Below are positions 1 to 31,682 of a stretch of 64,000 bases of DNA, piece by piece. Origin of the DNA: Gelidibacter algens. Lineage in GTDB: Bacteria; Bacteroidota; Bacteroidia; Flavobacteriales; Flavobacteriaceae. The notes beneath the pieces are model-generated. The model was not told the DNA's origin. It searched no databases and saw nothing but the letters and a program-made list of their open reading frames with translations. Made by a program: the position numbers and the translations under genes. The stretch's first letter is position 1, and the number at the start of each line of letters is the position of its first letter. The stretch covers positions 1 to 64,000 of the forward strand of contig NZ_LZRN01000019.1 of NCBI RefSeq assembly GCF_001678675.1. The letters run 5' to 3'.

Positions 1-680
1 GTTAAGCTTTTGACTGAAGAGTGCACATCTCGTTTTGAGTAACGAATAACGAATAACGAATAACGAATAACGAATAACGAATAACGAATAACGAAGTTTG
101 AATTGTGAAGTTGGTGAGATTAGTCTGGAAGCTAGAAGTTGGAAGCTAGAAGAAGGAAGCTAGAAGTTGGAAGCAAGAAGCTGGAAGATTGAGAGTATAC
201 GAGTGAAGCTTACAATTTTTGTAAATGATTTATACGGATTATTCTGCGCTAATCTGCGTTATCTGCGGGAGGATTTTAATTATTACAGTTAAGCTTTTGA
301 CTGAAGAGTGCACATCTCGTTTTGAGTAACGAATAACGAATAACGAATAACGAATAACGAATATCGAATAACGAATAACGAATAACGAATAACGAAGTTT
401 GAATTGTGAAGTTGGTGAGATTAGTCTGGAAGCTAGAAGATGGAAGCTAGAAGTTGGAAGCTGGAAGTTAGAAGTTAGATGTTAGAAGATAGAAGCAAGA
501 AGATAGAAGCTAGAAGCTGGAAGCTAGAAGAAGGAAGCTAGAAGTTAAATGTTAGAAGATTTCCAGGCGAATTGATGATTGACTGATCAGAGCAAATAAA
601 AAGACTCCTGTCTCTCGGATTACGCTGATTTTTGCAGAAAGTATCAACTGGAGGCTACTACTACAGAACTACAAACCACA
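1..680. repeat. Intergenic block of short tandem repeats with a 287-bp duplicated unit
   Basis: There is no gene here. A segment beginning GTTAAGCTTTTGACTGAAG at position 1 recurs at 288. Each copy holds a unique leader, then a run of the 7-mer AACGAAT (about 41-94 and about 328-395, with one TATCGAAT variant in the second), then a shared stretch starting GTTTGAATTGTGAAG. Purine-rich runs of the form GAAGCTAGAAG/GAAGTTGGAAG follow (about 128-190 and 427-560). The two copies differ in repeat number, so slippage as well as duplication has shaped the block. It lies downstream of the minus-strand lnt gene and shows no coding potential. Confidence 0.9.
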
Positions 681-27438: not shown

Positions 27439-28278
27439 TTACATTAAATTGAGTTGATATTTGACGTAGCTCCGGGTCAAAAGTTCAAACTTCTTGTAGT
27501 TAGGTACTCTTATGCGAGTTGACTTAATATCCAGGGCAGGTGTATTTTTTAATTTCTTGAGAAGTTGGTTATAATAGCGATAGGCCATAAAAACGCCAAA
27601 CTTAGCTTCAATTGGAAGTTCCTTAATGCCTTTAAGACCTAGTGCGAAGTCATTTTCAATATCAGTAATGATTGCATTTTTAGAAGCTTCATCCAGTTGG
27701 TTCAAATTTGTGTTAGGAAAATAAGTCCTGCTCAAATCATCATGATCAGCTTTTAAATCCCTCAAAAAGTTCACTTTTTGAAACGCGGAACCCAGACTCA
27801 TAGCGCCACCTTTTAAGGCTTCATATTTTTTGCGATCCCCTTTTACAAAAACTTTAAGGCACATCAATCCAACCACATCGGCTGAACCGTAGATGTACAT
27901 TTTATAGTCTGCCTCAGTTAAATAATCAGTTTTATGCAAATCTAAACGCATACTTTTCATAAAGGAAGTGACAAGGTGTTTGTCAATATCATATTTATGA
28001 TAGGTTTCCTGAAAAGCATTGAGAATAGGATTCAAACTAATTTTGTGCTCAAGCGCAAGTTCTAAATCTTCTTCAAAACGATCAAAGAGGGTTCTCTTGT
28101 CGTAATCATGGAAAGAATCAACAATTTCATCTGCAAAACGCACAAACCCATAGATGTTGTAAACATCCTGTCTGATGCTATTGGCCAACATTTTGGTAGC
28201 AAGAGAAAATGAAGTACTGTAAGAGTTTGTTACGGCCTTACTGCATTTATGGGAAACGATGTCAAATAGCGCTTTCAT
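27439..28278 (-). CDS. crtB: Phytoene synthase
   Basis: The enzyme condenses two geranylgeranyl diphosphates to phytoene. Its two Asp-rich motifs are visible: FVRFADEIVDSF (about residues 45-56) and KVNFLRDLKADHDD (about 167-180). SRTYFP follows the second motif as usual. The 279-residue length is normal for flavobacterial CrtB. It overlaps the end of crtI by 17 bases, so the two are translationally coupled. The frame is intact. Confidence 0.94.
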   Translation of the reverse strand: MKALFDIVSHKCSKAVTNSYSTSFSLATKMLANSIRQDVYNIYGFVRFADEIVDSFHDYDKRTLFDRFEEDLELALEHKISLNPILNAFQETYHKYDIDKHLVTSFMKSMRLDLHKTDYLTEADYKMYIYGSADVVGLMCLKVFVKGDRKKYEALKGGAMSLGSAFQKVNFLRDLKADHDDLSRTYFPNTNLNQLDEASKNAIITDIENDFALGLKGIKELPIEAKFGVFMAYRYYNQLLKKLKNTPALDIKSTRIRVPNYKKFELLTRSYVKYQLNLM

Positions 28279-29749
28279 ATGTTTTAATGGTGTGATGTTT
28301 TTTAATAAGTTCAGAAACCAATTTTCCAGAAATCAATGATGGCGGAACTCCCGGACCTGGTACTGTAAGTTGTCCAGTAAAATAAAGGTTATTTACCTTT
28401 TTGCTCTTCAATTTAGGTCTTAAAAAGGCAGTTTGCAAGAGGGTGTTTGCCATTCCGTATGCATTGCCTTTATAAGAATTGTAATCGTCAATAAAGTCCT
28501 TTACACAAAAAGACTCCTTAAATATAATATTATTTTTGACGTTTTGTGAGGTTAAATTCTCAAATCTGTCCATTATTTTGTCAAAATAGAGCGCTCTAAG
28601 TTCTGGAGTATCTTCCAACCCTGGTGCAAGCGGAATTAAGAAAATGCCTGCTTCTTGCCCTTCTGGTGCAACACTCGTATCAGTTAACGACGGGAAACTA
28701 GCATAAAACAATGGGTCTTTTGGCCATTTTGGCGTGTCATAAATTTCTTTAGCGTGCGCCTCAAAATCGACGTCAAAGAATAACGTATGATGATTGACAT
28801 TTTCCAGCTTTTTATCAAACCCCACATAAAACAGTAGGGAAGAAGGTGCAAACACTTTCTTTTCCCAATATGCTTCAGAATATTGACGGTGTACTTTGTC
28901 TAGCAATGTCTCTGAATGGTGATAATCTGCACCACTCAAAACGATGTCGCAGTGGTACGTTTCTCCGTTGGAGACTATGCCGGTAGCCTTATTATCTGTA
29001 ACATTAATTTTTTCAACGGACTGTTCTGTTTTTATGGTCACTCCCAAACTTTTGGCAAGTTCTTCCATGGCCAAAATAACTTCGTACATGCCTTTTTTTG
29101 GATGAAAGGTGCCAATTCCAAAATCGGCATAATTCATAAAACTATAGAAAGACGGCGTATTATCAGGTTTTGCACCCAAGAATAACACCGGAAATTCTAA
29201 AATTTTAGCCAATCGATCATTCTTGAATTCCTTGCGGACGTCCTTTTTAATGGTACTAAAAAATTGATCAATTTTTTAATAGTAACAGGAGTCATCAACT
29301 CAAAGGGTGAGACTCCTGGCCTATACACTAAATCTTTAATGGCAACATCATAATTATGTTGCGCATTGGCAATAAATTTTTTGAGCTTTTGGGAGCTTCC
29401 TTGTTCTTCTTTTTCAAATGTTTCGCAAATTTTTCCCAAAGTATCTTCAATTGTAATGAAATCGTCTTTTGCAAAATAAACGCTATAGGCCGGGTTTAGT
29501 TTTTCCAACTGATAATATTCAGAAGGATGTTTTCCAAAATCGCCAAAAAAGCGTTCAAATACATCAGGCATCCAGTACCAAGTTGGTCCTATGTCAAATG
29601 TAAAGCCATTCTTTTTTAAGCTGTCTGGCGCGACCGCCAATAGTCTTGTTTTTTTCAAAAATGGTGACATCATAGCCGTCTTTTGCGAGATAGCATGCTG
29701 CAGATAATGCAGAGAAACCGGAACCGATAATAGTAATACGTAATTTCAT
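28262..29749 (-). pseudogene. crtI: Phytoene desaturase gene with two frameshifts
   Basis: The product would desaturate phytoene to lycopene. Three frames join into about 495 residues, a normal CrtI length. Segment 1 from ATG 29749 has the FAD motif ITIIGSGFSALSAACYLAKDG and FEKNKTIGGRARQL. Segment 2 starts KKNGFTFDIGPTWYWMPDVF. Segment 3 starts after FFSTIKKDV and ends with the C-terminal FAD motif GQLTVPGPGVPPSLISGKL. Switch 1 is at six T (29612-29617; five expected) and switch 2 at six A (29258-29263; seven expected). Both shifts lie in homopolymers, so sequencing error is a live explanation. Confidence 0.9.
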
Positions 29750-29806: not shown

Positions 29807-30706
29807 CTAAATAGTCGCCATTAAACTGTCTATTGATTTAAATGTTTTGATTGATTTTGGTAAAGATTGGCTGTCAATATGTTGGGTCATATAACCAAGT
29901 ACCCACAATTCGTGATTGTTGTTTGTCAGAAGCTTGGATTCAAACTCAGCGAGGTAATTTGAAAGTTCCTCTTTTTCAGGTCTGATAGTAAAATAAGATA
30001 TAAACGTAACTTTTTCGTAATAGGCTAAAATGTCTGTTAGGCTGTCAATGGGAACGCTTGATCCCAAAAAGATGCAACGTTCCCCTTTAGAAACCATTTC
30101 AAAATTTACAAACATCAAGCCGAGTTCATGAATTTCATTATCCGGAAGAAAAAGAACAAAAGCATTATTGTGCTTTATTTTATTTTGAGCTTGCAAACTC
30201 TCAGTGTTGACCAACAGTTTTTGTCTGATAAGGGAGGACAAAAAATGTTCATGCGCCGGAGTGATCGTGTTTGTTTGCCAGAGCATTCCAACTTCGGAAA
30301 GTAAAGGCAAAAAGACTTGATAGAACAACTCTTTGAATGATTTGTCTTTGATAAGGCCATTATAGGTTTCATAAAAGAGCTCTTGGTCAAAATCCAACAT
30401 CGCCATTTTAAAGGTATTGATGGCGTGATTTTTCAGGTGGCCTTTACTGGCAAGTTCTCTGACCTCTTGGTGTATTTCCTGAGTGGTCAATGAGGCAATC
30501 TTCGAAATTTTTTGGCCATTATTGTTTAAGAAGCTAATGTTCAATAACTTCTGAAGATGGCTTAAATTGTAAAATCTTATATTGGTATCTGTGCGCTCAG
30601 GTTCGAGCAATTGGTATCTTTTTTCCCAAATTCTGATCGTGTGGGCCTTGATTCCCGTGAGATTTTCTAAATCCTTTATACTGAAAATGGTCTTAATGTT
30701 GTTCAT
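29807..30706 (-). CDS. CarH/CarA-like MerR regulator with B12-binding domain
   Basis: This is a predicted light- or cobalamin-responsive repressor of carotenoid genes. The N-terminal MerR winged helix (residues about 5-72) has GIKAHTIRIWEKRY. A helical cap region (about 90-170) carries W143-x9-E153-H154, the Wx9EH motif that packs over adenosylcobalamin in CarH. A Rossmann-like domain holds E191-I-H193-E-L-G, the ExHxxG motif with the lower axial histidine. In Thermus CarH the residue after the Trp is the His that forms the light-state bis-His link; here it is Gln144. It sits 57 bases upstream of crtI on the same strand. Confidence 0.88.
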   Translation of the reverse strand: MNNIKTIFSIKDLENLTGIKAHTIRIWEKRYQLLEPERTDTNIRFYNLSHLQKLLNISFLNNNGQKISKIASLTTQEIHQEVRELASKGHLKNHAINTFKMAMLDFDQELFYETYNGLIKDKSFKELFYQVFLPLLSEVGMLWQTNTITPAHEHFLSSLIRQKLLVNTESLQAQNKIKHNNAFVLFLPDNEIHELGLMFVNFEMVSKGERCIFLGSSVPIDSLTDILAYYEKVTFISYFTIRPEKEELSNYLAEFESKLLTNNNHELWVLGYMTQHIDSQSLPKSIKTFKSIDSLMATI

Positions 30707-30727
30707 TCTTTATTAAAAAATATGAAA

Positions 30728-30759
30728 CAAAATTAAACTATTTTATGATATAATATCAA
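30728..30759 (-). promoter_or_regulatory. Promoter of the CarH-like gene
   Basis: TTG (30757-30759) and a perfect -7 box TAATTTTG (30728-30735) are 21 bases apart on the minus strand. The surrounding GTTTAATTTTGTTT matches one half of the crtI operator (GTTTAACTTTTGTTT) except for one base, which suggests autoregulation. Confidence 0.5.
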
Positions 30760-30848
30760 GGAATTTCTTAATAATGTAAATATAATGGAGATGGTTTCAA
30801 AAAAAATCAGAAATCTTCTCTTGACTAATTTCATTCGATCGAGCCGTT

Positions 30849-31144
30849 CACGAGAATCCCGAACTGTCGGGAGAACTTCCACGTTAAACTAGTTTTTGTT
30901 TATGTGCGCACGAGAATCCCGAATTGTCGGGAGAACTTCCACGTTAAACTAGTTTTTGTATATGTGCGCACGAGAATCCCGAACTGTCGGGAGAACTTCC
31001 AGGTTAAACTAGTTTTTGTTTATGTGCGCAGGAGAATCCCGAATTGTCGGGAGAACTTCCACGTTAAACTAGTTTTTGTTTATGTGCGCACGAGAATCCC
31101 GAACTGTCGGGAGAACTTCCACGTTAACCTAGTTTTTGTTTATG
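30849..31144 (-). repeat. Five 60-bp tandem repeats carrying copies of the tRNA-Leu 3' end
   Basis: Five units with an exact 60-base period, differing by zero to three bases, lie directly downstream of the minus-strand tRNA-Leu. On the minus strand each unit contains GTGGAAGTTC, then a 6-bp hairpin TCCCGA/TCGGGA with a 4-base loop, then TTCTCGTGCGCACATA, then an AT-rich spacer. The first and third pieces copy the T-arm region and the acceptor end of the tRNA. The layout resembles the tRNA-linked repeats of E. coli tyrT. The open frame across the repeats is an artefact of the period being a multiple of three. Confidence 0.9.
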
Positions 31145-31228
31145 TGCGCACGAGAAGACTCGAACTTCCACGACCTAATGGTCACCAGCCCCTCAAGCTG
31201 GCACGTCTACCAATTCCGCCACGTGCGC
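31145..31228 (-). tRNA. tRNA-Leu (anticodon GAG)
   Basis: Read on the minus strand from 31228, the acceptor stem GCGCACG pairs with CGTGCGC, and discriminator A is at 31145. The D-arm is GTGGCGGAATTGGTAGACG. The anticodon arm is CCAGC-TTGAGGG-GCTGG, which gives GAG. A long variable arm typical of Leu/Ser tRNAs follows, then a T-arm with GTTCGAGTC. CCA is not encoded. Confidence 0.95.
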
Positions 31229-31682
31229 ATTAAAATTTTAATCAAAGGATGTAAAAATTCAGCATTTGCTTAACTTTTCGCGCCTTGGTTGGTATCCAAA
31301 AACTCATCCTAAAAGAACTTTAGCGGTGCAAATATAAAAAATCAATTATTTTAAAGCAGCTATTTTTAATTTACTTTTAAGGAGTCTCTATTTTAATTTT
31401 GATTTAGGCCAATTGCGAACAAGGAGCTCGACATCTTCCATCTTTTATCTTTCAATATAGAACTAGCGTTGGCTTTTTTTGGAAATTAAGAGGGATACGC
31501 TATGAAACTTGTTCTTGATAGCGCTACAAATAAATTCTTATGAAGTCATTTGCCAAATGAGGATTTCTTAGATTTTAATGCATCAAAATAGACGCTAGAA
31601 GCTAGACAATAGATAGCCGACACTAGACACTAGAGGAAATCAATGCGCATCTCTATCTTTATAATAAATTAAAATAACTTAT
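31229..31682. other. Intergenic region between tRNA-Leu and ku
   Basis: This region holds upstream sequence for the minus-strand tRNA and the plus-strand ku gene. A short imperfect repeat of CTAGA/GACACTAGAC type lies at about 31590-31635, similar in style to the GAAGCTAGAAG runs at the left edge. No gene is seen. Confidence 0.6.

Follow-up and report, generated by a model that had tools for sequence, protein, structure and literature searches.

Five tRNA-derived units behind a tRNA-Leu gene

The window, the 64,000-nt stretch of the Gelidibacter algens genome that we analysed, has a sole tRNA gene according to ARAGORN, an intact tRNA-Leu(GAG) on the minus strand (31144..31228) with a score of 50.3 bits for the Rfam tRNA model. 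Downstream of it, on the same strand, lies an array of five 60-bp units. Tandem Repeats Finder describes the segment 30849-31156 as 5.1 copies of period 60 with 95% matches and no indels (score 574), and in a separate repeat search consecutive copies were spaced by exactly 60 bp. Repeat finding and alignment place unit 1, the nearest to the tRNA, at 31089..31148, and units 2 to 5 at 31029..31088, 30969..31028, 30909..30968 and 30849..30908, respectively, all on the minus strand. The opening bases of unit 1 are also the final bases of the tRNA.

Read on the tRNA strand, each unit has CGTGGAAGTTC, which corresponds to the 5' strand of the T-stem followed by the TTC of the T-loop. A 16-nt palindrome, TCCCGA-N4-TCGGGA, comes next, where the tRNA-Leu itself has GAGTC. 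Past this hairpin, TTCTCGTGCGCA represents the 3' strands of the T-stem and of the acceptor stem, and is followed by a 21-nt spacer (11+16+12+21 = 60); in unit 5 the acceptor copy past the hairpin ends at TTCTCGTG. The T-loop of the tRNA-Leu, GTTCGAGTC, is the boundary of the copied part. Pattern matching located the GTTC and hairpin that take the place of the T-loop at 31097..31116, 31037..31056, 30977..30996, 30917..30936 and 30857..30876 in units 1 to 5 (minus strand), with loop sequences that alternate between CAGT (units 1, 3 and 5) and CAAT (units 2 and 4). This anatomy agrees with an initial sequence-only reading, which had noted five copies of the tRNA 3' end at an exact period, each comprising part of the T-arm and the acceptor 3' strand interrupted by a short hairpin; that reading had named no strand.

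The units differ by single bases, and four of the five carry a private substitution. Together with the alternating loops, these differences argue against a simple duplication at assembly. The pattern probably reflects growth of the array by doubling, and not an assembly echo.

On the plus strand, a 109-aa open frame (30904-31233) runs through the array, the period of 60 being a multiple of three; it is probably meaningless. Elsewhere in the window, TAACGAA heptamer arrays (8 and 10 copies) and GAAGCTA-type arrays are found close together (40-95, 327-396 and 125-560). A phytoene-desaturase-like gene, named from its translation, is apparently split into two overlapping ORFs on the minus strand (28262-29212 and 29197-29673), near other carotenoid-like genes.

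Insertion at tRNA-Leu and at three other tRNA genes of the genome

We searched eight relatives of the same genus with the tRNA and its array as a query, and in all eight only the tRNA end of the query was matched. None of them has a tail or a hairpin within 500 nt after its tRNA-Leu. In seven of these relatives, the native flank of the tRNA-Leu aligns locally with the sequence past the array, and the eighth did not align. This flank (30300..30791, minus strand) comprises the upstream region and the start of a MerR-like gene, named from its translation. The alignments start between 30803 and 30735, and at 30791/30792 in L005 and L012, the two that reach nearest to the tRNA (41-48 nt from it); the segment 30792-30848 is outside most of them. 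The alignments thus place the insert between the tRNA-Leu and its native flank.

The genome of G. algens has three other GTTC-hairpin sites, which adjoin tRNA-Gly(GCC), tRNA-Met and tRNA-Cys genes. At each of them, GTTC is retained, GANTC is replaced with the 16-nt palindrome and the copy continues into the 3' end of that same tRNA. At tRNA-Gly, the insert measures 89 nt, counted from position 57 in the T-loop up to where the palindrome ends. All four relatives viewed are empty there, with the native flank resuming past the hairpin-marked tail. The insert at tRNA-Met is 101 nt long, and the flank of the relatives likewise comes after the tail; the probe matched four of the nine relatives fetched, all four of them empty. 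The insert at tRNA-Cys (119 nt) is close to a contig end, and no empty site was seen for it. The inserts measured in this genome thus span 60-119 bp.

As the flank of the relatives resumes past the tail, the current 3' half of the tRNA either came with the insert or copies it, and the old half is the one behind the hairpin. These gene-less inserts share two features with homing elements, namely a fixed target, with a GTTC|GANTC boundary and viewed relatives that are empty, and the delivery of a new gene part while the displaced part remains, as the comparisons with the empty sites at tRNA-Gly and tRNA-Met indicate.

Two other loci of the same genome (L002 on contig C26 and L003 on contig C23) each have one or more partial, hairpin-less copies of the tRNA 5' half before a tRNA-Leu gene.

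A class of tRNA-gene inserts in Bacteroidota

Searching 299 genomes of the family with GTTCTCCCGANNNNTCGGGA yielded 16 sites in seven genomes, five of which form the array described above. As a reversed control gave no site, this pattern is not due to chance. By inspection, all 16 sites are tRNA-derived, the one in L049 being a truncated tRNA-like piece and that in L047 being part of a tRNA-Arg-like gene that is whole apart from it. At two places (L047:1451-1540 and L112:6290-6380), a whole tRNA-Arg-like gene with the hairpin as its T-loop is found within a multi-tRNA cluster.

A broader scan of genome_contigs for exact GTTCTCCCGANNNNTCGGGAC collected at least 119 stretches, and we analysed the 80 loci listed, with 95 sites. 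Among these, 51 sites have a same-strand tRNA within 2.5 kb and 44 do not. The flanks of 41 of the 51 sites match the neighbouring tRNA at 20 or more of 23 nt, and those of the other 10 do not; with random tRNAs of other loci, 44 of 1900 comparisons gave such a match. All matched sites but one (40/41) are downstream of their tRNA in these 80 loci. The part lost from the T-loop amounts to exactly five nt in 36 of the 41 matched sites, six in 4 and four in 1. The matched tRNAs of the listed loci are those for Phe (8), Cys (8), Ala (7), Tyr (5), Pro (4), Met (3), Leu (2), Arg (2), Lys (1) and Ser (1).

The 31 listed loci with matched sites belong to Bacteroidota (29), Chlorobiota (one) and Ignavibacteriota (one), with 23 of the 31 in Flavobacteriaceae. 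The 49 listed loci devoid of a matched site are from Bacteroidota (41) and other phyla (8). By reading, some of the remaining sites are tRNA-like tails clipped by the edge of the locus, and 10 scan sites fit an unrelated motif resembling a leader. This motif, ATGAAACGAGCCAT ... ATGGCGAGTTC-TCCCGA-N4-TCGGGA-CAGGCTATGTGGC, often lies shortly 5' of an ATG in Bacteroidota. A simple pattern for it fits 10 of the 80 listed loci (L127:1283-1440, and also L096, L100, L130, L146, L151, L156, L159, L164 and L174). Three of these loci were tested against Rfam and gave no match at the gathering score; the motif possibly is an undescribed structured RNA.

Two or more sites are present in 11 of the 80 listed loci. 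Among them, the nearest parallels to the array of the window are those of Gillisia hiemivivida, with three units spaced by 67 bp at a tRNA-Tyr, and of Psychroflexus aurantiacus, with seven hairpins spaced by 91-93 bp at a tRNA-Ala, in an array that is gene-less. These sequence comparisons make the array behind tRNA-Leu a member of a larger class of inserts at tRNA genes, which is found widely in Bacteroidota. In the layout that the alignments reveal, a copy of the tRNA 3' part, starting at the T-loop, is followed by a spacer, then by a copy of the T-stem 5' strand together with TTC and by the 16-nt palindrome, past which lies the displaced 3' end. Titles and abstract openings of the open-licence literature gave no account of elements of this kind on the chromosomes of bacteria. 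A viral origin was considered and set aside, as the exact 21-base pattern has no match in viral_contigs.

Small GIY-YIG proteins encoded in some of the inserts

Eight of the matched sites in the 80 listed loci lie 334-349 bp from their tRNA. In seven of them (Phe, Ala), an ORF for 82-95 residues lies in this interval; the remaining one belongs to the gene-less Psychroflexus array, as one of its later units. We tested 19 proteins of the class against PF01541, and all matched it above the cut-off. These proteins are ~80-105 residues long, barely more than a GIY-YIG domain, and by sequence the nearest solved structure is that of a UPF0213 protein, a weak match (E 0.02).

Gene-bearing units can also occur in tandem, as in Flavobacterium sp. 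11 (L126), where two complete ones follow each other. In genome G142 (L220), a single tRNA-Phe is followed by three gene-less units and then by one gene-bearing unit with the same ends. This locus is the direct link between gene-less arrays like that of the window and nuclease elements. Similarly, tRNA-Ala genes have both forms, gene-less (L107) and gene-bearing (L133, L141). A GIY-YIG gene in the same layout is found at tRNA-Met in a Chlorobiota and a Chitinophaga MAG. Among the listed loci, we came across no unit with a gene at T-loop tails of the Cys, Tyr, Pro, Leu or Arg tRNAs.

In the window, the 60-bp units harbour no endonuclease gene, and thus the internal nuclease gene of a homing element is missing from them. 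The G. algens genome has seven PF01541 matches, and none of the seven is on the contigs of the four T-loop-tailed tRNAs. The units must therefore be satellites or fossils, or be independent of a nuclease. One of the four matches viewed (the other three being in long frames) is at a tRNA-Ala, and this locus (L078, G000:C5, 1420-1810) looks like a mirror image of the others: a tRNA-Ala pseudo 5' half, in which the D-arm region has a GC-rich hairpin, is followed by a GIY-YIG ORF that at its end runs into the tRNA, and then by the intact tRNA-Ala.

We then used one class protein as a query against 149 genomes of the family and obtained matches in 89. Several of these genomes have exact tandems, with steps of 391 bp in G130 and 349 bp in G108. 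For 30 of the 89 genomes, we analysed the locus of the best match: a tRNA is present in 28 of the 30 loci, with a further copy of that tRNA in 23, which is partial in 22. By comparison, of 20 hand-picked GIY-YIG places with lower scores, five have a tRNA and 15 have none. The idea that tRNA-less GIY-YIG loci might be next to other structured RNAs was abandoned, as Rfam gave none at the gathering score in 19 loci, a result that applies to the 15 lower-scoring ones too.

By reading of the GIY-YIG loci, the hairpin takes the place of the T-loop at Phe and Ala, of the anticodon arm at Val, Arg-TCT and Met, or of the variable region at Asn, or it lies within the D-arm (Asn, Arg-TCG and the tRNA-Ala of G. 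algens). Some Val copies have the T-loop form, and one Phe locus has its hairpin between the D- and anticodon arms. Some D-arm and anticodon-arm cases rebuild the tRNA from the other side. In addition, palindromes of the CCTGCCTGCC, TCCGCC and CCCGCC types fill the loops at other tRNAs. A TCCGCC-type palindrome was also observed behind the anticodon in two copies of tRNA-Met-like pieces (L215, G005:C101:1-900, 100-400), where ARAGORN calls no tRNA.

For a phylogenetic tree, 58 protein rows were retained; L234 and the masked ORF of L233 were dropped, as were, except in L223, extra ORFs of an already represented locus. The proteins were labelled with the adjacent tRNA, and L050, L095 and L262 were left unlabelled. 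On this tree, the label needs 14 changes versus 36.3 after shuffling, and none of 200 shuffles gave a value as low. The ten Phe proteins, from several genera, form a single clade (98/91), and the Asn, Val, Pro, Met and Ala labels need two or three changes each. In this set of 58 proteins, the nuclease lineage thus follows its target. Such clustering is what target-specific nucleases would give, and shared descent would add to it.

We also looked for empty sites of gene-bearing inserts in the genera of G155 (three genomes) and G142 (a single genome), and found none. In the first genus, one relative also has a hairpin-tailed tRNA-Phe and the other gave short matches only.

A tRNA-invading element as the favoured explanation

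On balance, and by a modest margin of confidence, we take the array to be a nuclease-less, tandemly amplified relative of GIY-YIG elements that invade tRNA genes. This interpretation builds on features visible in the sequence comparisons, namely the insertion, the replaced tRNA half, the near-constant boundary, the presence of nuclease genes and the way these genes go with the identity of the tRNA; the cutting and the origin of the hairpin are what we infer from them. The nuclease would cut the tRNA gene in its T-loop, at or near GTTCGANTC, acting in cis or, where a unit has no gene, either in trans or at some earlier time. Repair from a copy of the element would bring a new 3' half, and the tRNA would survive. 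The palindrome would deprive the displaced spare copy of its cut site. Later breaks at the intact tRNA, mended out of register, would lengthen or shorten the array. The units would then be leftovers of breakage and repair, with no designed set of small RNAs. As it lacks a nuclease, the window copy falls short of a full homing element and works like the satellite of one.

A precedent is SegB of phage T6, which the passages available from its description (PMC13096335) present as a free-standing GIY-YIG homing endonuclease of T-even phages, with break peaks within tRNA genes. According to the same passages, the motif RAWTSGAAC is present in 23 of 83 sites, and SegB can act in trans and drives tandem repeats of a tRNA-Tyr-segB segment, aided by homologous recombination. 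Its GIY-YIG domain, its proximity to tRNA genes and the tandem amplification of a tRNA with its nuclease all resemble the features of the class described here. The reverse complement of the SegB motif, GTTCSAWTY, would correspond to the consensus of T-loop positions 53-61. A hairpin in place of GANTC destroys the stretch that matches this reversed motif. The tRNA-Gly and tRNA-Cys of G. algens fit it exactly, and its tRNA-Met and the tRNA-Leu of the window (GTTCGAGTC) are one base off. In contrast with the proteins of our class, SegB is phage-borne, and the survey in PMC13096335, as far as its available parts go, covers proteins of phages and archaeal viruses; these parts mention no hairpin-marked, displaced tRNA half. 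Further differences are the small size of our proteins (~80-105 residues) and the one-base departure of the tRNA-Leu T-loop from the motif.

We considered whether a changed T-arm might make the rebuilt tRNA immune. In 41 rows of tRNA-Phe genes (two genes being fetched twice), 13 are tailed and 28 are tail-less. The T-arm sequence GGTTCGATTCC is present in 7 of the 13 tailed and in all 28 tail-less rows; the other six tailed rows, all from Flavobacterium, have GGTTCGATCCC, and no tail-less row is known to be from that genus. The proposal thus fails outside Flavobacterium, as tailed and tail-less tRNA-Phe genes of the other genera do not differ in their T-arm. As the presumed site is kept in both cases, something else must limit self-cutting, a question that is also raised for SegB in the available text of PMC13096335. 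Other points that weigh against the tRNA-invading element are the T-loops of tRNA-Leu and tRNA-Met that are one base off the motif, the position of all seven PF01541 matches of G. algens on contigs other than those of the four tailed tRNAs, the absence of gene-bearing units from the Cys, Tyr, Pro, Leu and Arg tails seen, the 15 of 20 lower-scoring GIY-YIG loci that are tRNA-less, and the scan sites of the listed loci that do not match their tRNA (10 of 51) or have none in reach (44 of 95).

Alternative explanations

The main rival is a history in which the palindrome came first: a mobile, REP-like TCCCGA-N4-TCGGGA would have entered the hairpin loops of ordinarily duplicated tRNA pieces, slippage would have made the arrays, and the nuclease would be a later passenger. 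Short GC-rich hairpins, some of them inside the loops of other hairpins, are known as REP-like palindromes and as mitochondrial double-hairpin elements, and sponge mitochondria reportedly contain RHE hairpin elements (PMC2800124); the hairpins described here differ in their link with copies of tRNAs and with genes for nucleases. The genome has the core CCCGA-N4-TCGGG at 37 places versus one for the control, and 29 of these are not tRNA tails, which speaks for this rival. In the tandem units of Flavobacterium sp. 11, the loops of the terminator-like hairpins of both distal units (L126:1205-1220 and 1594-1609) are TCCCGA-N4-TCGGGA, unlike the terminator-like hairpin beside the intact tRNA, whose loop has no palindrome. 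A relative of the same genus as G. algens (L214, G003:C13:12000-13000) has a near-complete pseudo-tRNA-Val(GAC) at 392-490, upstream of an intact tRNA-Val(GAC), with TCCCGA-type hairpins in both its D-loop (405-422) and its T-loop (464-479). The hairpins are thus also found where no single cut is marked, and the lack of class ORFs at the Cys, Tyr, Pro, Leu and Arg tails fits this history as well. It sits poorly, however, with the palindromes of other types at other tRNAs, which suggest that a hairpin as such is needed, with the near-constant loss of five T-loop nt in the listed loci, and with nuclease clades that track tRNA identity. We therefore consider the palindrome-first history unlikely, though deserving attention ahead of the other alternatives.

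A second possibility is that the array produces regulatory small RNAs of the tyrT/rtT type, the transcript of the tRNA running through it and being cut into five similar molecules, as the sequence-only reading had proposed. That reading had pointed to a parallel with E. coli tyrT, which turns out to be closer than it had supposed. The tyrT and tyrV loci of E. coli K-12 have four displaced copies of the tRNA-Tyr 3' end, each identical over 19 of 19 nt, and all four start at GTTCG|AATCC, inside the T-loop. Their start, AATCC, is within GTTCGAATCC, one base away from the GTTC|GANTC boundary of the array. The array thus has in common with the tyrT/rtT type (rttR, tpr) that its units stand in tandem after a tRNA and contain the 3' end of this tRNA, starting in the T-loop. 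The E. coli repeats differ by their 178-bp steps, by 3'-end copies that no T-stem 5' copy immediately precedes, by junctions devoid of the TCCCGA hairpin and by the absence of a nuclease gene from the annotation of the 3 kb viewed. This analogy suggests that a break in the T-loop may be behind both the E. coli tyrT repeats and the array.

As for the small RNAs themselves, the E. coli layout includes an annotated one, rttR, and no terminator-like site was found at 30650-31500 of the window, which would let transcription continue. Against them, the predicted fold of a 60-nt segment from one unit is no better than those of its shuffled versions (z -0.41), and none of the eight genus relatives has a tail behind tRNA-Leu. 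In other loci of the class, we saw by eye a terminator-like hairpin with a T-run before each tail (L107, L126 and L046) or before three of the four units (L220); at Gly and Tyr, the same visual inspection revealed none. In the array region of the window, Rfam reports nothing but the tRNA above the gathering score, and a sub-threshold microRNA match at 31432-31502 was taken as chance. The anatomy and the tyrT parallel of the sequence-only reading have thus held up, and its ladder of five released RNAs has found no support. We regard a small-RNA role for the array as possible but unsupported, and rather improbable.

Debris from an attachment site, left by a phage, ICE or satellite with a tyrosine recombinase, is a very improbable source of the array: tRNA 3' ends are classic attB sites and the insert does rebuild the tRNA and displace its old end, but the inserts measured in the genome are just 60-119 bp long, the gene of gene-carrying inserts is of the GIY-YIG type, the 21-base pattern is absent from viral_contigs, and there are D-arm and anticodon-arm cases, some of which rebuild the tRNA from the other side. 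No integrase was recognised among the ORF translations read at 25-37 kb of the window, and 60-bp units are too small for a gene.

Relation to known elements and significance

Returning to the tRNA-invading element as our preferred explanation, its replacement of a gene end has a counterpart in mitochondria. In the fungal mobile ORFs (mORFs) of Allomyces and Glomus, which have a carboxy-terminal duplication, as the available parts of PMC3630166 report, an endonuclease gene arrives along with a substitute for the end of the gene that it enters. The resulting hybrid is expressed, and the native end that was displaced persists downstream. The same parts of that source assign mORFs to mitochondrial protein genes, with LAGLIDADG enzymes in three of the four Glomus cases. 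In contrast, the class described here involves bacterial tRNA genes and GIY-YIG proteins, with a hairpin at the junction and tandem arrays.

Tentatively, and with less confidence than we have in the origin of the array itself, we propose a Bacteroidota family of GIY-YIG homing elements specific for tRNA loops, in which each nuclease clade would cut one part (T-loop, anticodon arm, variable region or D-arm) of a single tRNA gene. The half brought by the element would rebuild the tRNA, and a palindrome that cannot be cut would mark the displaced half. Gene-less units would multiply as tandem satellites, and the tyrT repeats of E. coli would be a fossil left by the same break in the T-loop.

If this is true, a large phylum harbours a parasite of tRNA genes that spares the host gene by swapping one half of it, with a nuclease so short that it resembles a generic GIY-YIG protein. 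On the chromosome, such elements would parallel the amplification of tRNAs that SegB drives in phages, and their hairpins would offer a collection of naturally occurring site variants that may resist cleavage. The proposal makes testable both the role of small chromosomal GIY-YIG proteins encoded beside tRNA genes and the origin of tandem tRNA 3'-end repeats such as those of E. coli tyrT.
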